Origin: Streptomyces venezuelae
Lineage (GTDB): Bacteria > Actinomycetota > Actinomycetes > Streptomycetales > Streptomycetaceae
Reading direction: 5' to 3'
DNA: 64,000 nt
Assembly (NCBI RefSeq): GCF_008642315.1
Contig: NZ_CP029192.1
Coordinates: 5,766,001 to 5,830,000 of the forward strand
Shown here: in pieces, positions 6,232-54,385 of the stretch
How positions within the stretch are numbered: the first letter of the stretch is position 1
Layout: each line of letters opens with the position of its first letter
The notes under the pieces: generated by a model
What the model was told of the DNA's origin: nothing
The model's database searches: none
The model's input: the letters and a program-made list of their open reading frames with translations, nothing else
Made by a program: the position numbers and the translations under genes

Positions 6232-6331
6232 TCGGCCCGGTTTCGTACAACCATTCACCCGTACCGGTGAGTCATGCGGGGTGAGTGCGCCGGGGGCGCA
6301 CTCGTTTCGCACACAGGGGATGGGAAGCTCC

Positions 6332-7270
6332 ATGACTCACCGGACATCCGGTATATCCAGGCGTGCCCGCGTGCTCTCGGCGGGACTCGCCGCCGGGGTG
6401 CTCGTGCCGCTCGGCGCGGTCGCGACCGCCGCGCCCGCCGTCGCCGCGCCCGCGCCGCAGGTCACCTGCAGCTCCGCGCAGGCCGGCCTGGCCGCCAAGC
6501 TCAAGAAGGACATCACGGCGGCGCTCAAGAACCGCAAGGGCACGGTCGCCGTCGGCCTCTACGACCGCACCACGAAGACGACCTGCACCCTGCGCGGGTC
6601 CACCGCCTTCGACTCCGCGAGCGTCGTCAAGGCGACCGTCCTCGCGGCGCTCCTGTGGGACGCGAAGAAGACCGAGCGGAAGCTGACCGAGCGCGAGTCG
6701 GACCTCGCGTACGCCATGATCACCAAGTCGGACAACGACGCGACCAGCAAGCTCTGGCGGCAGCTCGGCACGGGGAAGATCAACGCGTTCCTCAAGGCCG
6801 CGAAGATGACGAAGACCGTGCCCGGATCCGGCGGCTACTGGGGCCTGACCCGCATCAACGCCACCGACGAGCAGAAGCTCCTCGCGCTGATCACCGCGAA
6901 GAACTCCGTCCTGAGCGACAACGCGCGCGCCTACATCCTCAAGCTGATGGGCAAGGTCGTCTCCTCCCAGCGCTGGGGCACCCCCGCGGGCACGCCGTCC
7001 GGCGTCTCCATCCACGTCAAGAACGGCTGGCTGCAGCGGTCGACCCACGGGTGGCGCGTGCACAGCATCGGCGCGTTCAAGGGCGGCGGCCACGACTACA
7101 CGATCTCCGTGCTCACGCACGGGAACAGCACGATGAACTATGGCGTCGCCACGATTCAGGGGGTGGCCAAGGCCATCCACAAGGATCTGGCGCCCAGGGC
7201 CTCGGCGGTCAGCACGTACGCCCCGACCACCACGCCGAAGGAAGCGTTCGTGGCTGTGCCCAGCAGCTGA
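6332..7270 (+). CDS. exported class A beta-lactamase-like serine hydrolase
   Basis: This 312-residue precursor starts with a Tat- or Sec-like signal peptide: an RR-containing n-region, then a hydrophobic stretch and the AVAAPAP region. The mature part has penicillin-recognising enzyme motifs: S97-V-V-K100 (SxxK), S133-D-N135 (SDN), and K230-N-G232 in the KTG position. The exact class A general base loop could not be placed. The ATG at 6332 was chosen for its upstream GGGAAG; in-frame starts at 6281 and 6320 also exist. It may bind or cleave peptidoglycan-like amides or be a weak beta-lactamase. It stands alone between the TPP gene and an ABC exporter. Confidence 0.78.
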   Translation: MTHRTSGISRRARVLSAGLAAGVLVPLGAVATAAPAVAAPAPQVTCSSAQAGLAAKLKKDITAALKNRKGTVAVGLYDRTTKTTCTLRGSTAFDSASVVKATVLAALLWDAKKTERKLTERESDLAYAMITKSDNDATSKLWRQLGTGKINAFLKAAKMTKTVPGSGGYWGLTRINATDEQKLLALITAKNSVLSDNARAYILKLMGKVVSSQRWGTPAGTPSGVSIHVKNGWLQRSTHGWRVHSIGAFKGGGHDYTISVLTHGNSTMNYGVATIQGVAKAIHKDLAPRASAVSTYAPTTTPKEAFVAVPSS

Positions 7271-7298
7271 GTCATTCGCTGCGGGCGCGTCGTGGCTT

Positions 7299-7331
7299 GT
7301 CGCGCAGTTCCCCGCGCCCCTTGGGGGCGCG
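7299..7331. terminator. repeat copy 2 with terminator-like hairpin
   Basis: This is the second copy of the intergenic repeat seen at 315-337 (shared core 7299-7321). It is extended by an 8-bp perfect hairpin: CGCGCCCC at 7313-7320, loop TTG, GGGGCGCG at 7324-7331, followed by GTTTGTT. It lies just after the serine hydrolase and before the ABC exporter, where a terminator would be expected. Confidence 0.5.
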
Positions 7332-7408
7332 GTTTGTTGCGGCGGGATGAAAACCGCTCGTCACGGTGTTGGTGCCTTCCGGCAGGACAGACGACCGGGA
7401 GGCACCGA

Positions 7409-36217: not shown

Positions 36218-37180
36218 GTGAGTGGTCCGTACGACGTCATCACGATGGGGCGGATCGGGGTGGACCTGTACCCCCTGCAGAGCGGGGTGCCCCTCGCCGA
36301 GGTGACCGCGTTCGGGAAGTTCCTCGGCGGATCGGCCGGCAACGTCGCGGTCGCCGCGGCCCGCCTCGGCCGCCGCGTCGCCGTCATCACCCGTACCGGT
36401 GAGGACCCCTTCGGGGAGTACCTGCACGGCGCGCTGCGCGACTTCGGCGTCGACGACCGCTGGGTGACCCCGGTCGCGGGCCTGCCGACGCCGGTGACGT
36501 TCTGCGAGATCTTCCCGCCGGACGACTTCCCGCTGTACTTCTACCGGCTGCCGAAGGCGCCCGACCTGGAGATCCACGAGAGCGAGCTGGACCTCGACGC
36601 GGTCGCCGCGGCGCGGATCTTCTGGGTGACGGGGACGGGGCTGTGCGCGGAGCCCAGCCGCACGGCGACGCTGGCGGCGCTCGCGCACCGGGCCCGGAAC
36701 GGGACCACGGTCTTCGACCTGGACTGGCGGCCCATGTTCTGGAACGGCGAGGACCCGGGCGAGGCGCGGCCCCACTACGAGGCGGCCCTCGCGCACGCCA
36801 CCGTCGCCGTCGGCAACCTCGACGAGGTGGAGGTCGCGACCGGGGTGCGCGAACCGCGCGCGGCGGCACGGGCGTTGCTCGACGCGGGCGTCGAACTCGC
36901 CGTCGTCAAACAGGGGCCCGAGGGAGTGCTCGCCATGAACCGGGCGGGGGAGGCGGCACGGGTCCCGCCCCTGCCGGTCAAGGTCCTCAACGGGCTCGGC
37001 GCGGGCGACGCGTTCGGCGGGGCGCTCTGCCACGGGCTGCTCGCGGGCTGGGACCTCGAACGGATCATGCGGTACGCCAACGCGGCGGGGGCGATTGTCG
37101 CCTCTCGGCTGGAGTGTTCGTCCGCCATGCCGTTTGCTGGCGAGGTCGCCTCGGTGGTGGAAGCGGGGGTCGTCACGTGA
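36218..37180 (+). CDS. iolC: 5-dehydro-2-deoxygluconokinase (PfkB family)
   Basis: This 320-residue PfkB kinase has the N-terminal GRIGVDLYPLQSGV, the substrate-side GGSAGNVAVAAARLG and the anion-hole/catalytic motif GAGDAFGG with D264. It phosphorylates 5-dehydro-2-deoxygluconate (the IolB product) in inositol breakdown. The GTG start has GCACAGGG just upstream. It heads the plus-strand iol genes. Its TGA overlaps an in-frame GTG of the aldolase frame (GTGA), before an inserted repeat. Confidence 0.9.
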   Translation: MSGPYDVITMGRIGVDLYPLQSGVPLAEVTAFGKFLGGSAGNVAVAAARLGRRVAVITRTGEDPFGEYLHGALRDFGVDDRWVTPVAGLPTPVTFCEIFPPDDFPLYFYRLPKAPDLEIHESELDLDAVAAARIFWVTGTGLCAEPSRTATLAALAHRARNGTTVFDLDWRPMFWNGEDPGEARPHYEAALAHATVAVGNLDEVEVATGVREPRAAARALLDAGVELAVVKQGPEGVLAMNRAGEAARVPPLPVKVLNGLGAGDAFGGALCHGLLAGWDLERIMRYANAAGAIVASRLECSSAMPFAGEVASVVEAGVVT

Positions 37181-37204
37181 GGGTGCACGCCCGACGGGGG
37201 CACC

Positions 37205-37258
37205 GTTCTCGGGGCTCCGCCCCGGGCCCCGCTCCCCAAACGCCGGAGGGGCTGGATC
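37205..37258. repeat. Streptomyces intergenic repeat between iolC and the aldolase
   Basis: The stretch with GTTCTCGGGGCTCCGCCCC and AAACGCCGGAGGGGCTGGAT matches a repeat family common between Streptomyces genes as I remember it. It fills the 80-base gap between iolC and the aldolase gene, whose co-directional neighbours otherwise nearly touch. Its GGAGGGG (37245-37251) is placed as the ribosome site of the downstream GTG. Confidence 0.65.
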
Positions 37259-37260
37259 CA

Positions 37261-38136
37261 GTGGACATCGGTGCGCTCGTCCGGACCCGCGTCCGGCGCC
37301 CCGAAGCCATCGCCGAAGCCGCCTCTCGGCGAGTGCGGCGGGAGTTGGTCGGGGACAGTGGGCGGCTCATGATCGTCGCCGCTGATCATCCCGCCCGGGG
37401 GTCCCTCGGCGTGGGACGGGACCCGCTCGCCATGGCCAACCGGGCCGACCTCCTCGAACGGCTCTGTCTCGCGCTGTCGCGGCCCGGGGTCGACGGCGTG
37501 CTCGCCAGCGCCGACGTACTCGACGACCTGCTGCTCCTCGGCGCCCTCGACGGCAAGGTCGTCATGGGATCCATGAACCGGGGCGGGCTCGCCGGTGCCG
37601 CCTTCGAGCTGGACGACCGGTTCACCGGGTACCGGCCCGAGGACATCGGGCGCCTCGGCTTCGACGCGGGCAAGCTGCTGCTCCGCGTCGACTACGAGGA
37701 CCCGGGCTCGCTGCGCACCCTGCACTCCGCCGCCCGCGTCGTCGACGCCATGGCCGAACGCGGGCTGCCCGTCTTCGTCGAGCCGTTCCTGACCGCGCGC
37801 GACGGCACGGGCCCGCCCCGCAACGACCTGAGCGCCGAGGCCGTCATCCGCTCCATCGCCATCGCCTCCGGGCTCGCCGGCACCTCCGCGTACACCTGGC
37901 TGAAGGTCCCCGTCACCGAGAACCCCGACGACATGGCCCGCGTCATGGAGACCTCGACGCTCCCCGCCGTCCTGCTGGGCGGCGACACGGGGGGCGACCA
38001 GGAGGCGGCGTACGAGAAGTGGCGCGGCGCCCTGCAACTGCCCACCGTGCAGGGGCTCGTCGTGGGCAGGGCGCTGCTGTACCCGCCCGACGGCGACGTG
38101 GCGGGGGCGGTCGACACCGCCGTGGGACTGTTGTAG
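37261..38136 (+). CDS. TIM-barrel aldolase of the iol cluster (Cgl0159/DeoC-LacD-like)
   Basis: This 291-residue protein resembles class I aldolase barrels of the Cgl0159 type found in actinobacterial iol clusters: LMIVAADHPARGSLGVG, KLLLRVDYEDPGS and AYTWLKVPVTENPD with a possible Schiff-base Lys, then LLGGDTGGDQEAAY. It probably cleaves 2-deoxy-5-keto-gluconate 6-phosphate to DHAP and malonate semialdehyde, the step done by IolJ elsewhere. The GTG at 37261 is preferred because conserved residues begin there. A GTG at 37177, overlapping the iolC stop, would give 28 extra residues read through the repeat. Confidence 0.8.
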   Translation: MDIGALVRTRVRRPEAIAEAASRRVRRELVGDSGRLMIVAADHPARGSLGVGRDPLAMANRADLLERLCLALSRPGVDGVLASADVLDDLLLLGALDGKVVMGSMNRGGLAGAAFELDDRFTGYRPEDIGRLGFDAGKLLLRVDYEDPGSLRTLHSAARVVDAMAERGLPVFVEPFLTARDGTGPPRNDLSAEAVIRSIAIASGLAGTSAYTWLKVPVTENPDDMARVMETSTLPAVLLGGDTGGDQEAAYEKWRGALQLPTVQGLVVGRALLYPPDGDVAGAVDTAVGLL

Positions 38137-38187
38137 ACGAGCTCAGGACCGTTGCAGGCGAGACGGATCAGGCCCGGGAGGCCCCAC

Positions 38188-39000
38188 ATGACGTACGTAC
38201 CGAAAGGCAGTGCGGCCGACGGCCCGTACGCCCTCGCCATCGATCCGAAACGGGCCGGTTGGAGCTATTCGCAGCTGCGCGTCGTCGAGCTCGAACCGGG
38301 CGGCACCCACTCCTTCACCACCGGAGAGAGTGAATGGATCGTGCTCCCGCTGACCGGCGGCTGTACGGTGCAGACAGCAGACGGGATCATCGAACTGCTG
38401 GGCCGCGACAGCGTGTTCAGCGGAGTCTCCGACTTCGCTTACGTGCCGCGTGACGCCCGGATCCAGATCGCCTCCGGCGCGGGAGGCCGCTTCGCCCTGG
38501 CAGGAGCGAAGTGCGAGCGTCGACTCCCCGCCCGCTACGGCTCCGCGCCGGAGGTACCAGTCGAGAACCGCGGCAGCGGCGGCTGCGCACGCGAGGTGCG
38601 GGGCTTCGCGGCAGCGGACGCCTTCGACTGCGACCGGCTCATCGCCGTCGAGGTGATCACGCCCGGCGGCAACTGGTCCTCGTACCCGCCGCACAAGCAC
38701 GACGAGCACCGGCCCGGCATCGAGGCGGAGCTGGAGGAGATCTACTACTTCGAGATCGAGGCGCACGGCGACCGCGAAGGGTTTGGATACCAGCGGGTCT
38801 CTCCGTCCAGGGAGGGCGGCACCGACGTCCTCGCCGAGGTCCGGACGGGGGACGCCGTGCTGGTGCCCGACGGCTGGCACGGCCCGTCCGTCGCCCAGCC
38901 CGGACACGCGATGTACTACCTGAACGTGATGGCGGGGCCGGGGCAGGAGAGGGAGTGGCGGATCTGCTTCCACCCGGACCACACGGAGGGATATCGATGA
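38188..39000 (+). CDS. iolB: 5-deoxy-glucuronate isomerase
   Basis: This 270-residue cupin protein has the IolB pattern: TGESEWIVLPLTGGCTVQ, SSYPPHKHDEHRPGIEAELEEIYYFEI with the metal-binding His and Glu residues, and VLVPDGWHGPSVAQPGHAMYYLNVMAG. It isomerises 5-deoxy-glucuronate to 5-dehydro-2-deoxygluconate in inositol catabolism. The ATG has GGGAG about seven bases upstream. Its stop overlaps the iolD start by four bases (ATGA). Confidence 0.95.
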   Translation: MTYVPKGSAADGPYALAIDPKRAGWSYSQLRVVELEPGGTHSFTTGESEWIVLPLTGGCTVQTADGIIELLGRDSVFSGVSDFAYVPRDARIQIASGAGGRFALAGAKCERRLPARYGSAPEVPVENRGSGGCAREVRGFAAADAFDCDRLIAVEVITPGGNWSSYPPHKHDEHRPGIEAELEEIYYFEIEAHGDREGFGYQRVSPSREGGTDVLAEVRTGDAVLVPDGWHGPSVAQPGHAMYYLNVMAGPGQEREWRICFHPDHTEGYR

Positions 39001-40865
39001 CCCGGCTCACCACGGCCCAGGCCCTGGTCCGTTTCCTGGCGCGGCAGTACACCGAGCGGGACGGCACGCGGCAGCGGCTCATCGGCGCGACCTGGGGCAT
39101 CTTCGGACACGGCAACGTGGCGGGCGTCGGCCAGGCCCTGGTCGAGTACGCCGACGAGATGCCCTTCCACCAGGGCCGCAACGAACAGGCCATGGTGCAC
39201 GCCGCCGTCGGGTACGCCCGGCAGAGCGGCCGCCTCTCCACCCACGCCGTCACCACCTCCATCGGCCCCGGCGCCACCAACCTCGTCACCGGCGCCGCGC
39301 TCGCCACCGTCAACCGGCTGCCCGTCCTCCTGCTGCCCGGCGACATCTTCGCGGCCCGGCCCGCCGACCCCGTCCTCCAGCAGCTCGAAGTCCCGTACGC
39401 CGGAGACATGTCGGTCAACGACTGCCTGCGCCCCGTGTCGAAGTACTTCGACCGCGTGACCCGCCCCGAGGCGCTGATCCCCGCCGCGCTCGCCGCGACG
39501 CGCGTCCTCACCGACCCCGCGGAGACCGGCGCCGTCACGCTCGCCCTGCCGCAGGACGTGCAGGCGGAGGCGTACGACTGGCCGGAGGAGTTCTTCGCCG
39601 AGCGGACGTGGACCGTACGCAGGCCCGCCCCCGACCCCCGCGAACTGGCCGCCGCCGCGGACGCCGTGCGCGCGGCCCGGCGCCCCCTGATCGTCGCGGG
39701 CGGCGGCGTCCACCACAGCGCTGCCGAGGAGGCGCTGCGGGAGTTCGTGGACGCGACCGGCATCCCCGTCGCCTGTACTCAAGCCGGCAAGGGCTCGCTG
39801 CGCCACGACCATCCGGCGGACATCGGCGGCATCGGGCACACCGGCACGGCGACCGCCGACGCGCTGGCCCGCACCGCCGACCTCGTGATCGGCGTCGGCA
39901 CCCGCTACAGCGACTTCACCACCGCCTCCGGCACCCTCTTCGAAGCGCCGGGCGTGCGCTTCCTCAACCTCAACATCGCCCCCTTCGACGGCCACAAGAT
40001 GGCGGGCGCGACGCTGATCGCCGACGCGCGCGCCGGGCTCGAAGCACTCGCGGAGGCGCTGCGGGGGTACGGGGTGGAGCCCGCGTACGTCGTCGAGTAC
40101 GGGGGTGGGAAAGAGCGGTGGGAGCGGCGCGTCGAGGCCGCGCTCCGGGCCGACGACGAGGACGCGCGCCCCACGCAGACGCAGGTCCTCGGCCTCCTGG
40201 ACGAGCTGGTGACGGACGACGACGTCCTGATCAACGCCGCCGGTTCGCTCCCCGGTGACCTGCACAAACTGTGGCGGGCGCGGTCGCCGCGGCAGTACCA
40301 CGTCGAGTACGGCTACTCCTGCATGGGATACGAGATCCCCGCGTCCATCGGCGTCGCGCTGGCCGCCCCTGAGCGGCCCGTGTGGGCGCTGGTCGGCGAC
40401 GGCACGTACCTGATGAACCCGACGGAGATCGTCACCGCCGTCCAGGAGAACCTGCCCATCAAGGTCGTCATCCTCCAGAACCACGGGTACGCCTCCATCG
40501 GCGGCCTCTCCGAGTCCGTGGGCGGCGAGCGGTTCGGCACCGCGTACCGCTTCCGGGCGGCCGACGGGTCGTACACCGAGGGCCCGCTGCCCGTCGACCT
40601 CGCCGCGAACGCGGCCTCGCTCGGCATGCGGGTGCTGCGCGCCGGGACCGTCCGCGACCTGCGCGGGGCGCTGCGCGAGGCACGCGACGCAGACCGTCCC
40701 ACATGTGTCTATGTGGAGACGGAAACGGCAGACACAGTGTCGGGCCCGCCCCCGGCACAGGCGTGGTGGGATGTGCCCGTGGCCGAGACCGCGACCCGGG
40801 TGTCCGCGGTCGAGGCCAGGGAAGAGTACGACCGGCACGTCACTGCCCGACGCCGCCACCTGTGA
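38997..40865 (+). CDS. iolD: THcHDO hydrolase, TPP-dependent
   Basis: This 622-residue TPP enzyme opens the ring of 3D-(3,5/4)-trihydroxycyclohexane-1,2-dione. It has the N-terminal FHQGRNEQAMVHAAVGYAR with the catalytic Glu, LPGDIFAARPADPVLQQLE, and the cofactor motif GDGTYLMNPTEIV ending in ILQNHGYASIGGL. The start ATG overlaps the iolB stop. The length is normal for IolD. It sits in the expected order of the inositol pathway. Confidence 0.95.
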   Translation: MTRLTTAQALVRFLARQYTERDGTRQRLIGATWGIFGHGNVAGVGQALVEYADEMPFHQGRNEQAMVHAAVGYARQSGRLSTHAVTTSIGPGATNLVTGAALATVNRLPVLLLPGDIFAARPADPVLQQLEVPYAGDMSVNDCLRPVSKYFDRVTRPEALIPAALAATRVLTDPAETGAVTLALPQDVQAEAYDWPEEFFAERTWTVRRPAPDPRELAAAADAVRAARRPLIVAGGGVHHSAAEEALREFVDATGIPVACTQAGKGSLRHDHPADIGGIGHTGTATADALARTADLVIGVGTRYSDFTTASGTLFEAPGVRFLNLNIAPFDGHKMAGATLIADARAGLEALAEALRGYGVEPAYVVEYGGGKERWERRVEAALRADDEDARPTQTQVLGLLDELVTDDDVLINAAGSLPGDLHKLWRARSPRQYHVEYGYSCMGYEIPASIGVALAAPERPVWALVGDGTYLMNPTEIVTAVQENLPIKVVILQNHGYASIGGLSESVGGERFGTAYRFRAADGSYTEGPLPVDLAANAASLGMRVLRAGTVRDLRGALREARDADRPTCVYVETETADTVSGPPPAQAWWDVPVAETATRVSAVEAREEYDRHVTARRRHL

Positions 40866-40882
40866 GAAGAGGGATGCTTGTC

Positions 40883-42394
40883 ATGACGAAGACCGTGAAC
40901 CACTGGATCGGTGGAAAGTCCGTCGAACAAGCTGCGGGCGCGTCCGGAACGTACGGCCAGGTCACCGATCCGGCGACCGGCGCCGTCACGACGCAGGTCG
41001 CCTTCGCGGACGTCGCCGACGTGGACGCGGCCGTCGCCGCCGCCCGTGAGGCCTTCGCGACCTGGGGCACGTCGTCGCTCGCCAAGCGCACCGCGGTCCT
41101 CTTCAAGTTCCGCGCGCTGCTCGACGCCAACCGTGATGCGATCGCCGAGCTGATCGTCGCCGAGCACGGCAAGGTGCACTCGGACGCGCTCGGCGAGGTC
41201 GCCCGCGGTCTGGAGATCGTCGACCTGGCGTGCGGCATCACGGTGCAGCTGAAGGGCGAGCTGTCGACGGAGGTGGCGTCCCGCGTGGACGTCTCGTCCA
41301 TCCGCCAGCCGCTGGGCGTCGTCGCCGGCATCACGCCGTTCAACTTCCCTGCCATGGTGCCGATGTGGATGTTCCCGCTGGCCATCGCCTGCGGCAACAC
41401 CTTCGTGCTCAAGCCGAGCGAGAAGGACCCGTCCGCGTCGATGAAGATCGCGGAGCTGCTGAGCGAGGCCGGCCTGCCGGACGGCGTCTTCAACGTCCTG
41501 CACGGCGACAAGGTGGCCGTGGACCGCCTCCTGGAGCACCCGGACGTGGCCGCCGTCTCCTTCGTCGGCTCGACGCCCATCGCCCGCCACATCCACACCA
41601 CCGCCTCCGCCAACGGCAAGCGCGTGCAGGCCCTCGGCGGCGCCAAGAACCACATGCTGGTCCTGCCGGACGCCGACCTGGACGCGGCCGCCGACGCCGC
41701 CGTCTCCGCGGCCTACGGCTCGGCGGGCGAGCGCTGCATGGCCATCTCGGCGGTCGTCGCGGTCGGTTCGATCGCCGACGAGCTGGTCGGCAAGATCAAG
41801 GAGCGCGCCGAGAAGATCAAGATCGGTCCCGGCAACGACCCGACGTCGGAGATGGGCCCGCTCATCACGGCCGCCCACCGCGACAAGGTCGCCTCGTACG
41901 TGACGGGCGCCGCGGCCGAGGGCTGCGAGGTCGTCCTCGACGGCACCGGCTACACCGTGGAGGGTTACGAGGACGGGCACTGGATCGGCCTGTCGCTGCT
42001 CGACCGCGTGCCGACCACGGCCAAGGCCTACCAGGACGAGATCTTCGGCCCGGTCCTGTGCGTGCTGCGCGTCGACACGTACGAGGAGGGCGTGGCCCTC
42101 ATGAACGCCTCGCCGTTCGGCAACGGCACCGCGATCTTCACCCGGGACGGCGGCGCGGCCCGCCGCTTCCAGCTGGAGATCGAGGCGGGCATGGTCGGCG
42201 TGAACGTGCCGATCCCGGTGCCGGTGGGCTACCACTCCTTCGGCGGCTGGAAGGACTCGCTCTTCGGCGACCACCACATCTACGGCAACGACGGCACGCA
42301 CTTCTACACCCGCGGCAAGGTCGTGACCACGCGCTGGCCCGACCCCTCGGACGCGCCGTCCGGCGTGGACCTCGGGTTCCCGCGCAACCACTGA
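40883..42394 (+). CDS. mmsA: (methyl)malonate-semialdehyde dehydrogenase, CoA-acylating
   Basis: This 503-residue aldehyde dehydrogenase has the CoA-acylating MMSDH pattern: start KTVNHWIGGKSVEQ, VAGITPFNFPAMVPMWMFPLAIACGN, KNHMLVLPDADLDAA and catalytic C285 in GSAGERCMAIS. It converts malonate semialdehyde from the aldolase step to acetyl-CoA and CO2. The ATG at 40883 has GAGGG nine bases upstream; an ATG nine bases earlier lacks room for a ribosome site. It is the last gene of the iol set, followed by two hairpins. Confidence 0.94.
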   Translation: MTKTVNHWIGGKSVEQAAGASGTYGQVTDPATGAVTTQVAFADVADVDAAVAAAREAFATWGTSSLAKRTAVLFKFRALLDANRDAIAELIVAEHGKVHSDALGEVARGLEIVDLACGITVQLKGELSTEVASRVDVSSIRQPLGVVAGITPFNFPAMVPMWMFPLAIACGNTFVLKPSEKDPSASMKIAELLSEAGLPDGVFNVLHGDKVAVDRLLEHPDVAAVSFVGSTPIARHIHTTASANGKRVQALGGAKNHMLVLPDADLDAAADAAVSAAYGSAGERCMAISAVVAVGSIADELVGKIKERAEKIKIGPGNDPTSEMGPLITAAHRDKVASYVTGAAAEGCEVVLDGTGYTVEGYEDGHWIGLSLLDRVPTTAKAYQDEIFGPVLCVLRVDTYEEGVALMNASPFGNGTAIFTRDGGAARRFQLEIEAGMVGVNVPIPVPVGYHSFGGWKDSLFGDHHIYGNDGTHFYTRGKVVTTRWPDPSDAPSGVDLGFPRNH

Positions 42395-44706: not shown

Positions 44707-45360
44707 TCAGCCGGAGGTCGCGTTCAGATAGGCGAGGACGGCCAGGACACGGCGGTTGCCGTCGTCGTCATCTCCGATGCCCAGCTTGCCGAACATCGAG
44801 GTCGTGTACTTGCTGATCGCGCTCTCGCTGAGGAACAGACGGCGGCCGACGGCCTGGTTGGACAGGCCCTCGGCCATCAGGGCCAGCACGGACCGCTCGC
44901 GCTCGGTGAGCCGGTCAAGACCCCGCCCGGCGGAACCCGCGGACAGCAGCTTCGCGATGACCGCCGGATCCATGGCCGTCCCGCCGCCCGCGACGCGCTC
45001 CAGCGCGCCGATGAACTGGTCGGCGTCGAACACGCTCTCCTTCAGGAGATAGCCGACGGCGCCGGCCCCATCGGCCAGGAGCTCCCTGGCGTACAACTGC
45101 TCGACGTGCTGGGAGAGCACGAGGACCGGCAGGCCGGGCATCTCGCGGCGGGCCGCGAGGGCCGCGCGCAGCCCTTCGTCCGACTGGGTCGGCGGCATCC
45201 GCACATCGATGACGGACACGTCGGGACGCCACGTCCGCAGCACGTCGAGCGTCTCGGGCCCGGTCGCGGCGGTCGCCACCACCTCGTGCCCGCACGCCTC
45301 GATCAGGCGGACCATCCCGTCGCGCAGGAGGTAGAGGTCTTCGGCTACGACGATTCGCAT
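44707..45360 (-). CDS. NarL/FixJ-type response regulator
   Basis: This 217-residue protein has a receiver domain with phospho-acceptor D52 (VIDVRMPP) and acidic residues E7/D8, and a C-terminal LuxR helix-turn-helix (LTERERSVLALMAEGLSNQAVGRRLFLSESAI). It overlaps the kinase gene by 16 bases, so the two are translated together. The kinase is expected to phosphorylate D52 and the regulator to bind DNA at unknown targets. The small membrane protein gene divergent from the kinase and the hydrolase-ABC operon beyond it are plausible targets. Confidence 0.93.
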   Translation of the reverse strand: MRIVVAEDLYLLRDGMVRLIEACGHEVVATAATGPETLDVLRTWRPDVSVIDVRMPPTQSDEGLRAALAARREMPGLPVLVLSQHVEQLYARELLADGAGAVGYLLKESVFDADQFIGALERVAGGGTAMDPAVIAKLLSAGSAGRGLDRLTERERSVLALMAEGLSNQAVGRRLFLSESAISKYTTSMFGKLGIGDDDDGNRRVLAVLAYLNATSG

Positions 45361-46604
45361 GGCACCGCCATCCTCACACGCGTCGGACCGCCCGCCGGAC
45401 TCGTGATCTCCACCGTCCCGTCGAAAACGGCGATCCTGCGGCGCAGCCCCGCGAGCCCGCCGCCGTCCCGCGCCCCGGCCCCGCCCCGGCCGTCGTCCTC
45501 CACCTCGACGACGATGCCGACGCCGTCGTGGTGGAGGCGGACGTGCGCCCGGGAGGCGTGGGCGTGCCGGACCGTGTTGGTGAGCAGCTCACAGACGCCG
45601 AAGTAGAGGGCCGCCTCGACCGGCGGGTCCAGGCGCAGCCCGTCATCGGCGTCGACGCCCACATCGAGCGGGACGTCCAGGGCGAGCGCGCGGACGGCGT
45701 CGACGAGTCCCCGCTCGGTGAGCACCGGCGGGCTGATCCCCTGGACCAGCTCGCGGAGTTCGGCCAGCGAGGCGGCCGCGCCTGCCCGCGCCTCCCGCAT
45801 CAGCGTCCGGGCCTGTTCGGGGTCGGACGCCAGCAGCTTCTCGGCGGTCGCGAGGGAGAGCCCGAGACCCACCAGGCGGGCCTGCGCCCCGTCGTGCAGG
45901 TCGCGTTCGATGCGGCGGATCTCGGCGGCCTGCGCGACCGTCGCGTCCGCGCGCTGGGCCGTCAGCTCGTCCACCCGGTCGGCCAGCGCCATCGCGGGCG
46001 ACGGGCGCAGGAAACGTACCGCCACCGGCTCCAACGGCCGCCAGGCGTACGGCGCGCAGCCGACGGCCAGCACCGCGCCGAGCACCCCCGTCAGGCGCGG
46101 GGCGAGCCCCGGCTGGAGGAGTCCGACGACCGCCGCGGCCACACCCGCCGGCGGCAGACAGGCGACCAGGCCCGCGGTGAACGGCACGACCGCGGTGAAG
46201 CGCAGATCGCGCCAGTTGGCGGGATCGCCCCACCGGACCCGCCACTTCTGGTCGAGGAGCGCGTCGCGGCTCGTGCGTTCGTAGCCGAAGCCGTTCCACC
46301 AGTACCCGGTGGACATCCGCGTCACCGGACCGGCCCGCCGGTACCCGTCGGGGATCACGGTGCCCGTCCAGTCCGCGACGACACGTCGCACCGTCCGGCA
46401 CACCGGCCTGGCGAGCACCGGCGTGCCCACACACACCAGCACGAGCGGCGCGAGCCACGACCACGGATTGCCGGGACCCCACCGGATCCCGAGCGCCACG
46501 GCCGCGGCCCACACGGCGGGGATCAGCATGCCGACGACCGCCACGACACACGCCCGCACGAACCCCGTGCCGACGCGCCCCACCCAAGACCCCACCTGTC
46601 GCAT
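45345..46604 (-). CDS. sensor histidine kinase (HisKA_3/DesK-type)
   Basis: This 419-residue protein has N-terminal membrane segments (about 17-40 and 50-66), more hydrophobic segments around 140-185, and the HisKA_3 phospho-acceptor motif ERDLHDGAQARLV with H237. A HATPase domain (ELLTNTVRHAHASRA, DDGRGG, GGGLAGLRRRI) follows. It senses an unknown envelope signal. Such kinases next to ABC transporter genes are often envelope-stress sensors. It is divergent from the gene at 46762. Confidence 0.92.
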   Translation of the reverse strand: MRQVGSWVGRVGTGFVRACVVAVVGMLIPAVWAAAVALGIRWGPGNPWSWLAPLVLVCVGTPVLARPVCRTVRRVVADWTGTVIPDGYRRAGPVTRMSTGYWWNGFGYERTSRDALLDQKWRVRWGDPANWRDLRFTAVVPFTAGLVACLPPAGVAAAVVGLLQPGLAPRLTGVLGAVLAVGCAPYAWRPLEPVAVRFLRPSPAMALADRVDELTAQRADATVAQAAEIRRIERDLHDGAQARLVGLGLSLATAEKLLASDPEQARTLMREARAGAAASLAELRELVQGISPPVLTERGLVDAVRALALDVPLDVGVDADDGLRLDPPVEAALYFGVCELLTNTVRHAHASRAHVRLHHDGVGIVVEVEDDGRGGAGARDGGGLAGLRRRIAVFDGTVEITSPAGGPTRVRMAVPCESS

Positions 46605-47145: not shown

Positions 47146-47275
47146 CCGTCACGGACCGGCCGACCCGCGTACCACGGTCGCCGTACGCGGGCGCGGAGTC
47201 TACTCCCGGGGGAGGCGTACGGGTTCAGACCGGCGGCTGCCCCGGTTGTCGGCGGTCGCCCGTACCTTTGACGGT

Positions 47276-49939
47276 ATGGATCTACGACTGCCCAGGCCAA
47301 GGTTGTCCGTGCCGAGCGGTCCGCGCAGGCTGATCGCCGCCGTGGCCGCCGTCGCGGTGCTCGCCGGTGTGGGCACGTGGTCGGCGGTCGCCTCGGAGGA
47401 CGGCGGGCCCGCCGTGCGGCGCACCGACCGCATGATGGACACCGGCGGCGCCCGGATCGACACCTCGTACTTCACGGCGGGCGACCCGGACACCAAACGC
47501 CCCGCGATCCTCATCGGGCACGGCTTCGGCGGCAGCAAGGCCGACGTCCGCAAGCAGGCGGAGGACCTGGCCCAGGACGGGTACGCGGTCCTGACCTGGT
47601 CCGCGCGCGGCTTCGGGAAGTCCACCGGCAGGATCGGGCTCAACGACCCGAAGGGCGAGGTCGCCGACGCCCGCAAGCTCATCGACTGGCTGGCGACCCG
47701 CCCCGAGGTGCAGCTCGACAAGGACGGCGACCCGCGCGTGGGCATGACCGGCGCCTCGTACGCGGGAGCGGTGTCCCTGCTCACCGCCGGGTACGACCGG
47801 CGGGTGGACGCCGTCGCCCCCCAGATCACGTACTGGAACCTCGCCGACGCCCTGTTCCCCGACGGCGTCTTCAAGAAGCTGTGGGCCGGCCTCTTCATCA
47901 ACACCGGTGGCGGCTGCGAGAAGTTCGAGAAGCGGCTGTGCGCCATGTACGAGCGGGTCGCCGAGGCCGGCAAGCCGGACGCGGAGGCACGCGAGATGCT
48001 CGCCGAGCGCAGCCCGGCCGCCGTCGGCGACCGCATCAAGGTGCCGACGTTCCTCGCCCAGGGTCAGACCGACTCCCTCTTCCCGCTCGGCCAGGGCGAC
48101 GCCATCGCCAAGGCGGTCCGCGCGAACGGCGCGCCCGTCTCCGTCGACTGGATCGCGGGCGGCCACGACGGCGGCGACCGCGAACAGGACCGCGTCGAAG
48201 GCCGCGTCGACGACTGGTTCGACCGCTACCTGAAGGACGACAAGAGCGCCGACACGGGCCCCGCGTTCCGCGTCACCCGCACCGGAGGCGTCGACTCCAC
48301 CGACGGCGCGGCCCGCAAGCGCGGTGCGAGCGCCGACGCGTACCCGGGCCTGGAGAGCGGCACGCGCGCGATCCCGCTGCGCGGCCGCGAGCAGACCTTC
48401 GACAACCCGGCGGGCGCCAGCCCGCCCGCCATCTCCGGGCTCCCCGGCGTCGGCGGCAGCCGCCTCTCCCAGTTCGCCTCGCTCGGCGTCGGCATCTCCG
48501 TGGACTTCCCCGGACAGTTCGCCAAGTTCGACTCGGCGCCCGTCCGCGACGACCTCCGCATCACCGGCTCGCCGACCGTCCGCGCCCACGTGAAGTCCTC
48601 CGGCGACGACGCGGTGCTCTTCGCGAAGGTGTACGACGTCAGCCCCGACGGCAAGCAGCAGGTCCTGCCCTCGCAGCTCGTCTCGCCCCTCCGCGTCACG
48701 GACGCCCGGCAGGGCAAGGACGTCGAACTGCGGCTGCCCGCCGTCGACCACAAGGTGCAGAAGGGCCACCACCTGCGCCTCGCCCTCTCCTCGACCGACT
48801 TCGGCTACGCGTCGCCGAACACACCCGCCAAGTACACCGTCTCCCTGAACGGCGACCTGAAGGTGCCGACCGCGCCCGGCGTGGACACCGCGGCCGCGCC
48901 GCTGCCCGCCTGGGTCTGGTGGCTGCCCGCCGCCGGCGCCGCGCTCGCCCTCGGCCTGCTCGTCACCGCACGCAGGCGCACCACCGCGCCCGCCCCCGAC
49001 CCGGCCCTCGCGGAAGTCCCGCTCCGGATCACCGACTTGAGCAAGCGCTACGCCAAGTCCACCGACCGGTACGCGGTCCGTGATGTCTCCTTCACCGTCG
49101 AGAAGGGCCAGGTGCTCGGCCTCCTGGGACCGAACGGCGCGGGCAAGACGACGACCCTGCGCATGCTCATGGGCCTCATCCGCCCCGACGCGGGCGAGAT
49201 CCGCGTCTTCGGGCAGGCCATCAGGCCCGGCGCGCCCGTCCTCTCCCGCGTCGGCGCGTTCGTCGAGGGAGCGGGCTTCCTGCCGCACCTCTCCGGCCGC
49301 GAGAACCTGGAGCTGTACTGGAAGGCGACCGGCCGCCCCGCCGAGGACGCCCACCTGGAAGAGGCCCTGGAGATCGCGGGCCTCGGCGACGCGCTCGCCC
49401 GCGCCGTGCGGACGTACTCCCAGGGCATGCGGCAGCGCCTCGCCATCGCCCAGGCCATGCTCGGCCTGCCGGACCTGCTGATCCTCGACGAACCGACCAA
49501 CGGCCTCGACCCGCCCCAGATCCGCGAGATGCGCGAGGTCATCATCCGGTACGCGCGCGGCGGCCGCACCGTCATCGTCTCCAGCCACCTCCTCGCCGAG
49601 GTCGAGCAGTCCTGCACGCACCTGGTCGTCATGGACCGCGGCCGACTCGTCCAGGCGGGCCCGGTCGCCGAGATCGTCGGCTCCGGGGACACGCTCCTCG
49701 TCGGACTCGCGGAGGACATCCCCGACCCGCTGGTGGAGAAGGTCGCCGCACTGCCCGGCGTCGCGTCGGCGGTCCGCGCGGACGACGGCCTCCTGGTGCG
49801 GCTCGACGGCACCGAGCACGCGAGCGCCGTACGCCTGCTGCCCGAACTGGTCCGCCTCGACGTACCGGTGGAGTCCATGGGCCCGCACCGCCGCCTGGAG
49901 GATGCGTTCCTCACCCTGATCGGAGGCACCACCGCATGA
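47276..49939 (+). CDS. S15/CocE-like hydrolase fused to ABC transporter ATPase
   Basis: This 887-residue protein has three parts. After an N-terminal membrane anchor (about 18-38), a large alpha/beta hydrolase resembles the S15 X-Pro dipeptidyl-peptidase/CocE group, with predicted triad S161 (GASYAG), D266 (GQTDSLFP) and H297 (GGHDGG), and a C-terminal jelly-roll-like domain (about 400-530). A second membrane helix (about 545-565) follows. A complete ABC ATPase (about 582-887) then has Walker A GPNGAGKT (618-625), signature YSQGMRQ, Walker B LLILDEP (E739) and H771. The topology puts the hydrolase outside and the ATPase inside. The ATG overlaps the permease start at its end (ATGA). Confidence 0.9.
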   Translation: MDLRLPRPRLSVPSGPRRLIAAVAAVAVLAGVGTWSAVASEDGGPAVRRTDRMMDTGGARIDTSYFTAGDPDTKRPAILIGHGFGGSKADVRKQAEDLAQDGYAVLTWSARGFGKSTGRIGLNDPKGEVADARKLIDWLATRPEVQLDKDGDPRVGMTGASYAGAVSLLTAGYDRRVDAVAPQITYWNLADALFPDGVFKKLWAGLFINTGGGCEKFEKRLCAMYERVAEAGKPDAEAREMLAERSPAAVGDRIKVPTFLAQGQTDSLFPLGQGDAIAKAVRANGAPVSVDWIAGGHDGGDREQDRVEGRVDDWFDRYLKDDKSADTGPAFRVTRTGGVDSTDGAARKRGASADAYPGLESGTRAIPLRGREQTFDNPAGASPPAISGLPGVGGSRLSQFASLGVGISVDFPGQFAKFDSAPVRDDLRITGSPTVRAHVKSSGDDAVLFAKVYDVSPDGKQQVLPSQLVSPLRVTDARQGKDVELRLPAVDHKVQKGHHLRLALSSTDFGYASPNTPAKYTVSLNGDLKVPTAPGVDTAAAPLPAWVWWLPAAGAALALGLLVTARRRTTAPAPDPALAEVPLRITDLSKRYAKSTDRYAVRDVSFTVEKGQVLGLLGPNGAGKTTTLRMLMGLIRPDAGEIRVFGQAIRPGAPVLSRVGAFVEGAGFLPHLSGRENLELYWKATGRPAEDAHLEEALEIAGLGDALARAVRTYSQGMRQRLAIAQAMLGLPDLLILDEPTNGLDPPQIREMREVIIRYARGGRTVIVSSHLLAEVEQSCTHLVVMDRGRLVQAGPVAEIVGSGDTLLVGLAEDIPDPLVEKVAALPGVASAVRADDGLLVRLDGTEHASAVRLLPELVRLDVPVESMGPHRRLEDAFLTLIGGTTA

Positions 49940-50799
49940 GCGCCACCCTGGAGCGCCCGACCGCGCCCGGCTACCGCGCGCGGCGGACCCTGCCCCTGCG
50001 CGTCGAGGCGGTCCGCCAGCTGAAGCGCCGCCGCACGCTCGTCATGGGCGGCATCATGGCGCTCCTGCCGATCGTGCTCGTCATCGCGTTCGCCGTCGCG
50101 GGCGGCTCACCCGGCTCCCGCAACGGCGACGTGACCCTCATGGACACGGCCACGGCATCGGCGGCCAACTTCGCCGCGACGTGCCTGTTCGTCTCGGCGG
50201 GCTTCCTGCTCGTCATCCCCGTCGCGCTGTTCTGCGGCGACACCGTGGCCTCCGAGGCGAGCTGGTCCTCGCTGCGCTACCTGCTGGCCGCGCCCGTGCC
50301 GCGGGCCCGGCTGCTCTGGTCCAAGATGGCCGTCGCCCTCGGCATGAGCGCCGCCGCGATGGTGCTGCTGCCGCTCGTCGCGCTGGCGGTCGGCACGGTG
50401 GCGTACGGCTGGGGACCGCTGGACATCCCGACCGGCGGCACGCTCCCCGCGGGCACGGCGACCCGGCGCCTGCTCGTCGTCGTCGCGTACATCTTCGTCT
50501 CCCAACTGGTCACCGCCGGCCTCGCGTTCTGGCTGTCCACGAAGACGGACGCGCCGCTCGGCGCGGTCGGCGGCGCGGTAGGCCTGACCATCGTCGGCAA
50601 CGTCCTGGACGCGGTGACGGCGCTCGGCGACTGGCGCGACTTCCTCCCCGCGCACTGGCAGTTCGCCTGGGCCGACGCGATCCAGCCGCAGGCGGAATGG
50701 GGCGGCATGATCCAGGGCTCGGCGATCTCGGTGTCGTACGCGCTGGTGCTGTTCGCGCTGGCTTTCCGGGGGTTCGCGCGGAAGGACGTGGTGTCCTGA
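49936..50799 (+). CDS. ABC-2 type permease, partner of the hydrolase-ABC protein
   Basis: This 287-residue membrane protein has six hydrophobic segments (for example GGIMALLPIVLVIAFAVAGG and FAATCLFVSAGFLLVIPVALF) and the ABC-2 pattern WSSLRYLLAAPVPRARLLWSKM. Its ATG overlaps the stop of the fusion gene by four bases, so the two proteins are made together and probably form one transporter with the ATPase domain. The direction and substrate of transport are unknown; ABC-2 systems usually export. Confidence 0.9.
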   Translation: MSATLERPTAPGYRARRTLPLRVEAVRQLKRRRTLVMGGIMALLPIVLVIAFAVAGGSPGSRNGDVTLMDTATASAANFAATCLFVSAGFLLVIPVALFCGDTVASEASWSSLRYLLAAPVPRARLLWSKMAVALGMSAAAMVLLPLVALAVGTVAYGWGPLDIPTGGTLPAGTATRRLLVVVAYIFVSQLVTAGLAFWLSTKTDAPLGAVGGAVGLTIVGNVLDAVTALGDWRDFLPAHWQFAWADAIQPQAEWGGMIQGSAISVSYALVLFALAFRGFARKDVVS

Positions 50800-50921
50800 G
50801 GGCAGGGCCGGGCCCAGCGGGCCCGTAGCCGCATCGAGACGCTTCCGCAACGGTTCCGAGCGATCGTTCGAAGCCCCTCCGGCGTCACAGTCATGTGAGC
50901 GGACGACGCGAGGGGGACCGG

Positions 50922-52520
50922 ATGGGGACTCGGCGGAGCGGACGGGCCGGAAGGATGCGGCAAGGGGTGCTCGCCATGGCCGTGGCGGGCGGCCTCGCAC
51001 TGGCCGGCTGCGTCGGCGGCGACGCGGACCGGACCAGCGGCGACGGCGGCGAGAAGCGTGACAGCGCGCCGATGCCCGCCCCCGCGCCCGCCCTGCCGAA
51101 CGGCGGCGCGAGCCAGGCGCCCGGCGAGCAACAGGGCCAGGACCAGCGGGAGTTCGCACCCGACCACCTCTCCACGTTCGCCCTGGACGTCGACACCGCC
51201 TCGTACGGCTTCGCGCGCCGCACCCTCGCCGAAGGACGCCTGCCCGATCCGTCGACGGTCCGGCCCGAGGAGTTCGTCAACAGCTTCCGGCAGGACTACC
51301 CGCGGCCCGACGGCGACGGCTTCTCCGTGAGCGTGGACGGCGCCCGTACGGGCGACGACGGCTGGTCACTGGTCCGGGTCGGCCTCGCCACCCGCGGCGA
51401 ATCCGCGGACACCGAACGTCCGCCCGCCGCCCTCACCTTCGTCATCGACGTGTCCGGCTCCATGGCGGAGCCGGGCCGCCTCGACCTCGTGAAGCGGTCG
51501 CTCGGCCTCATGACCGACCGGCTGCGCCCCGACGACTCAATCGCCCTGGTCACCTTCAGCGACACGGCGAAGACGGTGCTGCCGATGACGCGCCTGGGGG
51601 AGAGCGGGGACGACGGGGCGGGCCGTACGCGCGTGCACCGGGCCGTCGAGGGCCTGGAGCCCATCCAGTCCACCAACCTCGAAGCGGGCATCACCACCGG
51701 CTACGACACGGCGGTGCGCGGCAGGAAGGAAGGCGCCACCAACCGGGTCGTCCTGCTCTCCGACGCCCTCGCCAACACGGGGGCGACCAGCGCGGACGGC
51801 ATCCTGGACCGCATCTCGGACGCCCGCAGGCAGCACGGCATCACTCTCTTCGGCGTCGGCGTCGGCAGCGACTACGGAGACGCCCTGATGGAGCGGCTCG
51901 CCGACAAGGGTGACGGCCACACGACGTACGTGTCGAACGAGGAGGACGCGCGCGAGGTGTTCTGCGAACAGCTTCCCGCCCACATCGAGCTGCGCGCCCG
52001 CGACGCGAAGGCGCAGGTGTCCTTCGACCCGGCGACGGTCGAACAGTTCCGGCTCATCGGGTACGACAACCGGCAGGTCGCCGACGACGACTTCCGCGAC
52101 GACTCCGTGGACGGCGGGGAGATCGGCCCCGGCCACACAGTGACGGCGCTGTACGCGGTGCGGACCGAGCCGGGCGCCGGCGGTCACCTGGCCACGGCGA
52201 GCGTGCGCTGGCTCGACCCCGACAGCCGGGCGCCGCACGAGGAGTCGGGCCGTATCGAGGCGGCCGACCTCGACGGGTCGCTCCGGGAGGCGGACGCGGG
52301 CCTCCAGGTCACCGCGGTGGCGGCGTACTTCGCGGACGGCCTGCGCGCGGCCGTCCCGCCCGGCGCCCCCGTGGACCGTGACCTGCCCGAACCGGCCCCC
52401 GCCACGCCGTCCCTCACGGAACTCTCCGAACGGGCCCACGCGCTGCCGGTCCGCACGAAGCAGGTCCGCGAACTGACGTCGTCCATCGACGAGGCGGCGC
52501 GCTTGAGCGGGGACTTCTGA
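50922..52520 (+). CDS. vWA-domain lipoprotein (YfbK-like)
   Basis: This 532-residue precursor has a lipobox LAGC (Cys about 30) and a Pro/Ala/Gly-rich linker. Next comes the vWF N-terminal domain (FALDVDTASYGFARRTL, FVNSFRQDYP), then a vWA domain with an intact MIDAS DVSGS (D176, S178, S180), and a C-terminal DUF3520-like region. It is probably on the outer face of the membrane and binds a protein partner through Mg2+. The ATG at 50922 has AGGGGG five bases upstream; a GTG at 50895 is less likely. Confidence 0.87.
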   Translation: MGTRRSGRAGRMRQGVLAMAVAGGLALAGCVGGDADRTSGDGGEKRDSAPMPAPAPALPNGGASQAPGEQQGQDQREFAPDHLSTFALDVDTASYGFARRTLAEGRLPDPSTVRPEEFVNSFRQDYPRPDGDGFSVSVDGARTGDDGWSLVRVGLATRGESADTERPPAALTFVIDVSGSMAEPGRLDLVKRSLGLMTDRLRPDDSIALVTFSDTAKTVLPMTRLGESGDDGAGRTRVHRAVEGLEPIQSTNLEAGITTGYDTAVRGRKEGATNRVVLLSDALANTGATSADGILDRISDARRQHGITLFGVGVGSDYGDALMERLADKGDGHTTYVSNEEDAREVFCEQLPAHIELRARDAKAQVSFDPATVEQFRLIGYDNRQVADDDFRDDSVDGGEIGPGHTVTALYAVRTEPGAGGHLATASVRWLDPDSRAPHEESGRIEAADLDGSLREADAGLQVTAVAAYFADGLRAAVPPGAPVDRDLPEPAPATPSLTELSERAHALPVRTKQVRELTSSIDEAARLSGDF

Positions 52521-52528
52521 GGCGGGCC

Positions 52529-54313
52529 CTAGCGCCCGCACAACTCCTTCTCCGCCCGCACCGGATCAGTCGGGAAACGGAACGACGTGCGCTCCACCGA
52601 CCCCGTCAGGTTCCGCCAGAAACGGCCGACGGTCAGGGGCGCGCGGGTGGCGGCCCGCAGTTCCGCGAGCGGCCCGCAGCGCAGGGCCCGGCGGGCGGCC
52701 TCGACCCGGGCGGGGTCGAGGCCCTCGGGCACGTCGGCGGCGCCGCGTTCGGCGACGATCCACTCGTCGGGCAGCCGCTTGTCGTGTCCCACGCGGCCGT
52801 TGACCAGTCCCTCGGAGTGGGCCGCCAGTGGATAGGCCAGCCCGATGGGGTCGAGGGCCGCACCGGAAAGCGGAACGACGGACCCGCTGAAGCCGAGCGT
52901 GTTGTAGACCCCCGTCACCCCGGGCACACCGCCCGCCACGGGCGTCTGGGCGAGGAGCAGGGCCGGGGCGCCGCTCCGGGCCCGCTCCCGTACGAGGGCG
53001 GCGTACGCACGGTTTCCCGGCTGGCCCGCGAAGTCGTGGTGGAGGGGGTGAGGGGCGGCGTTCTGCCGCACGTACACGCCTCGCTCGTCCGCGATCCCGC
53101 CCGCGCCGATCCGCCCCTCGTACGGCACGCGCCACATGCCCGCGCACGCGACGGCCCACACGCCGACCACCACCGCGGCGACGCCCCACGCGCGCGTGAG
53201 CGGAACCAGGAAGACGGGCAGCAGCATCAGGAGCAGCCCCGGCAGGAACATCCGCCCGTGCATGAAGTCGCCGCCGACCTTGATGACGTAGAGCCAGCAG
53301 AGGGCACCGGCGAGGACGGGGGCGACGACGGGGGCGGAGTCCCGCGTGACGCCCGGGTCGCGTACTTGTCGTACGCCGAACCTCCCCGCGTGAGCGGCGA
53401 CCGCGCCCACCGACACCATCGCCACCACCGGCACCCACAGCGCGTACGGCTCCGTGAAGTCCCGGAGGTAGTCGAACCCGCGCCCCCACAGGCTCCGTGA
53501 GGCCTCCTTGGTGATGCCGGGCAGCGGCACCAGATGCCCGTAGTACCCCATGCGGAAGATCTCGTACGCGACGGGAAGCGCCCCGGCGACGCCCGCTCCG
53601 GCGAGCGCCCCGCGCCACGAGGGCCGTGCCGTCACCCACTGCGCGGCCAGGAAGACCACCGACACCAGCGTGAGGTCGGGCCGCACGAGGGGCCCGAGCC
53701 CGAGCACGGCGCAGGTCACGAGCGAACGGGGGCGTGCCACGAGCGCGAGCCAGGCGCCCGCGATCCAGCAGGTGGCGAGCCCCGTCTCCAGCCCGGAGGT
53801 GGCGAAGTCCCAGACGGGCGGGAGGGCGAGCAGGACGAGGGCGCCGCAGGGGACGAGGAGCCCGCGTCCGGCGCTCTCACCGCCTCCCCGCAGCGACAGC
53901 GGCAGGTGCTGGCGCTGGCGCAGCCGCATCGCCCCGACCCCGGCGAGCGCGAACCCGACGGCGGTGAAAAGGAGTCCCCCGTACATCGCCACGGTCGCCA
54001 CATCGGCCCCCGTGGCCCCGCCCGCCACCAGCAGCCACTGCCACAGGGTGCCGGTGGACGACTCCGCGCGTTCGCCCGCGTTGAAGACGGGCCCGTGGCC
54101 GGCGAGGACCTGCCGGACCGTACGGACGTAGATGTGCCCGTCGTCGGACATCCACCGCCGCTGGAAGCCGGCGAAGCCGATGACGAGCGCGGGCAGCAGG
54201 CAGGCCCCGAGGCGGACGCGGTCCCGCCATCCGCCGGGCGCTCCCGCTCCCGGGGAGGGCCCGGCGACGGCGGCTTCGGGGTCACGGAGGGAAGTGTGCG
54301 CGGACGTCGTCAT
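52529..54313 (-). CDS. AftB-like GT-C membrane glycosyltransferase
   Basis: This 594-residue protein has about nine to ten membrane segments and the GT-C acidic motif in its first outer loop (RRWMSDDGHIYVR, D57 and D58), then VLAGHGPVFNAGERAESSTGTLWQWLL, resembling mycobacterial AftB and actinobacterial proteins named ZomB. AftB adds terminal arabinofuranose from a polyprenyl phosphate donor. Streptomycetes lack mycobacterial arabinogalactan, so the acceptor here is unknown. The ATG at 54313 was preferred to a GTG two codons earlier. It is convergent with the vWA gene. Confidence 0.75.
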   Translation of the reverse strand: MTTSAHTSLRDPEAAVAGPSPGAGAPGGWRDRVRLGACLLPALVIGFAGFQRRWMSDDGHIYVRTVRQVLAGHGPVFNAGERAESSTGTLWQWLLVAGGATGADVATVAMYGGLLFTAVGFALAGVGAMRLRQRQHLPLSLRGGGESAGRGLLVPCGALVLLALPPVWDFATSGLETGLATCWIAGAWLALVARPRSLVTCAVLGLGPLVRPDLTLVSVVFLAAQWVTARPSWRGALAGAGVAGALPVAYEIFRMGYYGHLVPLPGITKEASRSLWGRGFDYLRDFTEPYALWVPVVAMVSVGAVAAHAGRFGVRQVRDPGVTRDSAPVVAPVLAGALCWLYVIKVGGDFMHGRMFLPGLLLMLLPVFLVPLTRAWGVAAVVVGVWAVACAGMWRVPYEGRIGAGGIADERGVYVRQNAAPHPLHHDFAGQPGNRAYAALVRERARSGAPALLLAQTPVAGGVPGVTGVYNTLGFSGSVVPLSGAALDPIGLAYPLAAHSEGLVNGRVGHDKRLPDEWIVAERGAADVPEGLDPARVEAARRALRCGPLAELRAATRAPLTVGRFWRNLTGSVERTSFRFPTDPVRAEKELCGR

Positions 54314-54385
54314 GATCACTACATCGGCGCGGCCCGACGACGGCTTGAGAGAGCCGGAAGCAGGGGACCTCGGTGACGGGACGCG

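Follow-up and report, generated by a model that had tools for sequence, protein, structure and literature searches.

Can a single bacterial polypeptide place an enzyme on the outer face of the membrane and the motor of an ATP-binding cassette (ABC) transporter on the inner face, and what would such a chain do? The question is raised by a gene (47276–49939) in a 64,000-nucleotide stretch of Streptomyces venezuelae DNA, here called the window (positions 5,766,001 to 5,830,000 of contig NZ_CP029192.1, assembly GCF_008642315.1), to which coordinates refer unless another sequence is named. The gene codes for an 887-residue fusion of a predicted outer hydrolase of the S15/CocE type, a membrane helix and an ABC ATPase, and it adjoins the gene for an ABC-2 permease (49936–50799); all features of the two genes lie on the plus strand. 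We propose, with a probability of about 0.4, that the two genes specify an ABC-2 exporter in which the polypeptide of the ATPase also bears an outward-facing serine hydrolase, which would cleave an exported amphiphilic ester or acyl compound.

Two complete halves in one open frame

The fusion gene begins with ATG and has no internal stops in the window sequence. Its product matches the Pfam families Peptidase_S15 (residues 72–255; 70.9 bits, cut-off 23), PepX_C (residues 418–522; 61.5 bits, cut-off 22.5) and ABC_tran (residues 602–742; 112.6 bits, cut-off 25), and it passes the NCBIfam model CocE_NonD (100.2 against 66.3 bits). No ABC model was over its cut-off among the 25 of 194 NCBIfam families listed, the best ABC match, drrA (TIGR01188), reaching 177 bits against the 312.45 needed. 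The searches for relatives covered Actinomycetota and gave 149 fused open reading frames, from which we aligned 131 rows of differing sequence, the window protein among them (one row, L141, repeats L176 in truncated form). The row L030 is partial at the catalytic triad owing to a contig end, so that triad counts are taken from 130 rows. Ser161 (47756–47758), within the motif GASYAG, Asp266 (48071–48073) and His297 (48164–48166), which the original prediction had named as the triad, are each kept in 130/130 of these. The ATPase half (residues 580–887; 49013–49936), placed by Pfam and by a fold match, contains a Walker A motif, GPNGAGKT, at residue 618 (49127–49150; G618, G623, K624 and T625 in 131/131 rows), an ABC signature, YSQGM, at residue 714 (49415–49429; Y714, S715 and G717 in 131/131 rows, with position 716 a Gln in 117 and a His in 14), a Walker B motif, LLILDE, at residue 734 (49475–49492; D738 and E739 in 129/131 rows) and an SSH motif at residue 769. 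In the two Walker B exceptions, L019 and L083, a similar short out-of-register stretch replaces the motif and the frame is correct on both sides of it; this could be an assembly error in those two relatives, or a real change.

Thus, one chain does hold both a hydrolase and an ABC ATPase, as the open frame, the Pfam matches and the motifs attest, and the claim that both halves have full catalytic motifs and no sign of decay stands across the aligned rows, which come from many assemblies. The stop or sequencing error at residues 570–580 that would have undone the original prediction is not seen, the relatives from many genomes being single-frame through that stretch. With the same fusion and intact motifs in 131 rows, decay of the gene, or an error of sequencing or assembly, can be dismissed with near certainty.

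The hydrolase half

The hydrolase half consists of an alpha/beta hydrolase domain with a helical lid (about residues 43–330; 47402–48265), in which the fold match starts at residues 43–44 and the boundary near 330 is an estimate from the elements of the structure model, and of a PepX_C jelly-roll domain placed by Pfam (48527–48841). The model used was built from 39 alignment rows, with a predicted local distance difference test score (pLDDT) of 84.5; an earlier one had 16 rows and a pLDDT of 64.8. By both sequence and fold, the nearest solved structure is PaL (PDB 8yzn and 8yzo), whose identity as a lipase is the depositors' word 'Lipase'. PaL and the cocaine esterase CocE (1ju3) have the same fold over residues 43–535 and, by alignment, the same Ser-Asp-His arrangement, at 26% and 20% identity, respectively, but their chains, of 505–587 residues, have no ABC half.

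Both enzymes match better than X-Pro peptidase does. PepX is defined by an additional domain that lies N-terminal to its hydrolase fold. The fusion, with only 42 residues ahead of its fold, lacks such a domain, and PepX (6nff) aligns with it from PepX residue 158 on. The suggestion that the enzyme is an X-Pro peptidase is weakened by this comparison, since 'X-Pro' derives from the name of the Pfam family whereas the nearest solved structure is a lipase. We favour a hydrolase that would act on esters or acyl bonds rather than on X-Pro peptides. For the same reasons we regard as quite improbable a peptide-processing exporter, in which the outer domain would remove an X-Pro or other short unit from an exported peptide; moreover, no third gene shared by the loci was found, although a small peptide gene was not sought.

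Topology and the permease

Two hydrophobic segments flank the hydrolase half: at the N terminus, a segment that is either a membrane helix or a signal peptide (residues 17–40; 47324–47395), modelled with low pLDDT and with a hydropathy peak at 20–38, and a second helix (residues 545–565; 48908–48970), which the model and a hydropathy peak at 547–565 place in the membrane and which is predicted to run from outside to inside. Lys and Arg residues are more numerous after helix 2 than before it in 131/131 rows, in keeping with the positive-inside rule, and the N-terminal helix is richer in them on its preceding side in 127/130 rows. An A-x-A motif stands behind the N-terminal helix in 106/130 rows, although few of the distant members listed have it, and in Streptomyces this helix may be a cleavable signal peptide. 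Of the two membrane helices between which the hydrolase had been placed, then, the second is upheld, whereas the first may be lost on secretion. A hydrolase outside and an ATPase inside, on one chain, is the predicted arrangement. Cys214 and Cys222 (GCxxFxxxLC; 47915–47941), each present in 128/131 rows and jointly absent from L118 and L121, are likely to form a disulphide, and exactly two Cys residues occur in the hydrolase half of 127/131 rows; an oxidised pair would fit the outside location.

The spacing from D508 to helix 2 is 35–43 residues in 128/131 rows, and that from helix 2 to Q612 has a median of 49 and exceeds 70 in one row (L032), whereas the loop ahead of C214 is free of insertions in 100 rows and is lengthened by as many as 92 residues elsewhere. 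Near-constant tethers beside a variable loop are a weak indication that the distance between the hydrolase and the membrane is set; with such tether lengths a mechanical link between processing and transport seems plausible.

The permease, of 287 residues, matches ABC2_membrane_4 (39.5 bits, cut-off 27), and its gene overlaps that of the fusion by 4 bp (ATGA); matches to ABC_tran and to an ABC2 membrane family, both over their cut-offs, in adjoining genes are the profile of an ABC-2 exporter. In agreement with the coupling to a permease first suggested, the gene order is conserved: a permease gene follows, in the same orientation, in all 117 loci in which the gene caller found the fusion (80 from named genomes, 78 of them Streptomyces; 18 from relatives; and 19 distant), with a gap of −4 in 68/80, 14/18 and 13/19 of them, respectively. 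A permease is likewise next in the distant locus L173, where the caller had no match for the fusion. When the genes of 21 distant loci were clustered, the fusion was found in 21 and the permease in 20 (L177 is cut), and no further cluster occurred in more than 4 of the 21.

Distribution and origin of the fusion

Almost every genome of the genus carries the fusion, and outside the genus its occurrence is patchy. Among 61 genomes covered by a full-length search, it occurs in 36 of the 37 from the same genus, its own included, and in 5 of the 24 others; G031 is the congener without it, and the match in G008 is cut by a contig end. Of 151 genomes of the genus with a completeness of at least 95%, 137 match the hydrolase with an E value no higher than 1e-130, and in 136 of these the open frame is at least 854 residues long (the exception, G525, runs to a contig end), the fused state being inferred in this count from frame length rather than from the ATPase of each genome; 14 genomes, G008 among them, have no match at that threshold. 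A draw of 396 genomes from the phylum gave 47 matches in 42 genomes at E 1e-60. The ATPase half shares the open frame in 24 of these matches but not in 22, and the remaining one (G383) is truncated where its contig ends. The fused cases come from four families outside the class of S. venezuelae, as well as from others within it. A scan of genome contigs took in the best 80 of 546 confirmed relatives, and a plasmid search found the fusion in two among the 30 matches listed, from Tsukamurella and Nonomuraea.

Homologues that were mostly two separate genes with no co-evolution would also have counted against the original prediction. We found no split-gene version among the 20 of the 22 unfused phylum matches that were examined (all but G121 and G235). 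No related permease above 50 bits was found near any of these 20, some of the stretches being short at contig ends, and the separate-gene hypothesis was rejected on this count. Three unfused loci (L145, L150 and L158) have some ABC open frame in the stretch, none in the arrangement of the fusion. When 67 hydrolase domains were placed in a tree, those of the 46 fused rows formed one group (Shimodaira–Hasegawa-like approximate likelihood ratio test, SH-aLRT, 98), the only 'unfused' row inside it being the contig-cut L177. Single branches likewise part fused from unfused rows in the trees of the ABC domain (28 fused, 15 unfused; SH-aLRT 99) and of the permease (28 fused, 8 unfused; SH-aLRT 100). 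These were quick trees, in which the unfused ABC and permease rows are the top matches plus those in the fetched loci; with few unfused rows and several long branches, they are consistent with one old fusion event but are not proof of it. Since unfused ABC-permease pairs of the same kind occur in these genomes, a simple history would be that a gene for a secreted hydrolase became attached to the 5′ end of a gene for the ATPase of an ordinary exporter.

Among the unfused relatives, one lies in the genome of S. venezuelae itself (C1:1495780-1497414; 5778–7643 of the 13-kb stretch L191); it is an S15-type open frame of 621 residues with one N-terminal helix and with no ABC or permease relative within that stretch. 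Two further S15-type domains stand in frames of 1472 residues (L160, 3790–8208) and 987 residues (L161, 6310–9273), each with two hydrophobic helices and no ABC match; these are possibly other membrane-linked arrangements of this hydrolase.

The two activities could also be independent and merely co-localised, the exporter and the hydrolase serving as separate, uncoupled protective steps against the same kind of compound. The relationship of the hydrolase to free-standing, secreted-type enzymes would suit such an arrangement, as would the complete motif set of each half, yet neither the lack of a split version in the matches examined nor the near-constant tethers is expected from it, and we consider it unlikely. 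Conversely, that the fusion is kept intact in distantly related actinobacteria suggests that the hydrolase and ATPase activities depend on each other.

Proposed mechanism

What sequence and model show is the order of the domains, their complete motifs, the signals of topology and the tie to the permease gene, alongside trees that agree with a single ancient fusion. In the mechanism that we propose, two fusion chains would assemble with two permease chains, and ATP would drive the permease, through which a small amphiphilic compound containing an ester or acyl bond would reach the outer face. There the hydrolase, held above the permease exit, would cleave it, leaving a product that is unable to return or that is released in an active or harmless form. 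Since the pair is not accompanied by biosynthetic genes, we favour a general role in the envelope or in detoxification over one as the exporter of a single antibiotic.

Several points weigh against this proposal. The model of the fusion has a predicted template modelling score (pTM) of 0.60, so that the mutual placement of its domains is uncertain; a lipase-like fold by itself is no proof of ester specificity; and export by the permease, like an exit that faces the active site, is an assumption of the proposal. Moreover, in Dictyostelium TagC, the nearest precedent, ABC activity is required to present the protease domain, which works at the cell surface (PMC3743828); this would better fit the main rival, an outer enzyme switched by ATP. 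Here little or no cargo would be moved; ATP cycling would instead shift helix 2 and so open, lift or present the hydrolase, whose substrate would belong to the envelope or the environment. Such a switch would be in line with the resemblance of the ATPase half to NosF, which extends to both sequence and fold (ABCA-type cassettes also match), and with the near-constant tethers. The permease, however, is of an ordinary ABC-2 type and has unfused ABC-permease relatives in these same genomes, so that the core probably began as a transporter, and we find the ATP-switched enzyme somewhat doubtful as an account of the system.

Start codon and neighbouring genes

A −10-like hexamer, TACCTT (47263–47268), stands 13 nt ahead of the start codon in a leaderless-type layout. 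The start could be placed in 56 of the 80 loci tried; in 55 of these a TANNNT hexamer lies 12–14 nt upstream, and in just one is there a Shine–Dalgarno-like motif. In five relatives (L004, L005, L006, L010 and L011) the open frame starts one codon before the residue aligned with M1, and these limits, together with the TANNNT spacing, support M1 as the start. A TANNNT hexamer directly upstream, with no Shine–Dalgarno motif, is the layout of leaderless transcripts, and suggests that the fusion mRNA is leaderless.

Myo-inositol-use-like genes lie upstream on the plus strand (36218–42394), for a PfkB kinase, a KduI/IolB protein, a thiamine pyrophosphate enzyme (IolD-like) and an aldehyde dehydrogenase; an aldehyde dehydrogenase is near the fusion in 60–64 of the 80 named-genome loci. 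Directly 3′ of the permease is a gene (50895–52520, plus strand) for a VWA/YfbK-type protein with a lipoprotein-like start; such a protein is near the fusion in 53/80 named-genome loci and in 0/20 distant ones. We take the sharing of both as local synteny. A histidine kinase and a LuxR-type response regulator (44707–46604, minus strand) are divergent from the fusion gene, and were rejected as part of the system, the regulator having a match in 2/80 loci (about 38% identity) and the kinase in none. Further downstream, a hydrophobic-looking protein of 596 residues (52529–54319, minus strand) has no Pfam match and has a relative in 1/80 named-genome loci.

Comparison with known systems

Within the open-access literature and the terms searched, we found no paper describing the fusion, no described function for this near-constant gene of the genus, and no other combination of an outer S15/CocE-type enzyme with a two-gene ABC-2 ATPase. 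Annotation can hide such a fusion: naming by the first domain, as in the one annotated relative encountered, called merely 'alpha/beta fold hydrolase', can make a survey of genomes miss an ABC transporter.

DrrAB and NatAB-like ABC-2 exporters share with the present system an ATPase and a separate permease of the six-helix type; to our knowledge DrrA has no outer hydrolase, and the ATPase half of the fusion fails the drrA cut-off. NosF (of NosDFY), ABCA4 and Thermotoga TM0544 (1vpl) are cassettes like the ATPase half, with no hydrolase named as part of their chains. In NosDFY, NosD is separate from NosF, and the complex works on an outer partner protein rather than moving a cargo. Peptidase-containing ABC transporters (PCATs) combine cleavage and export in one chain, with a cytosolic C39 cysteine peptidase and a fused membrane domain. 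In the fusion, by contrast, the enzyme is predicted to be outside and is a serine hydrolase, C39 is absent from the Pfam result and the membrane domain has a gene of its own. The Tag proteins have a subtilisin-type protease and a membrane domain of their own. Dictyostelium TagA, TagB and TagC resemble the fusion in joining a serine hydrolase to an ABC transporter in one polypeptide, but they are ABCB-family proteins (PMC3743828), whereas here the enzyme is of the S15/CocE type, the transporter of the ABC-2 type and the permease separate, which sets the fusion outside the Tag type. TagC and the PCATs are earlier examples of an enzyme linked to an ABC transporter, so that the principle itself has precedents. 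If the coupling is true, a bacterial enzyme and a pump motor would be parts of a single membrane-crossing chain, which would offer a simple system in which to study how ATP hydrolysis inside controls chemistry outside; if the enzyme is instead switched by ATP, the energy state of the cell would set the rate of an extracellular cleavage, through an ABC-2 core kept across actinobacterial families.

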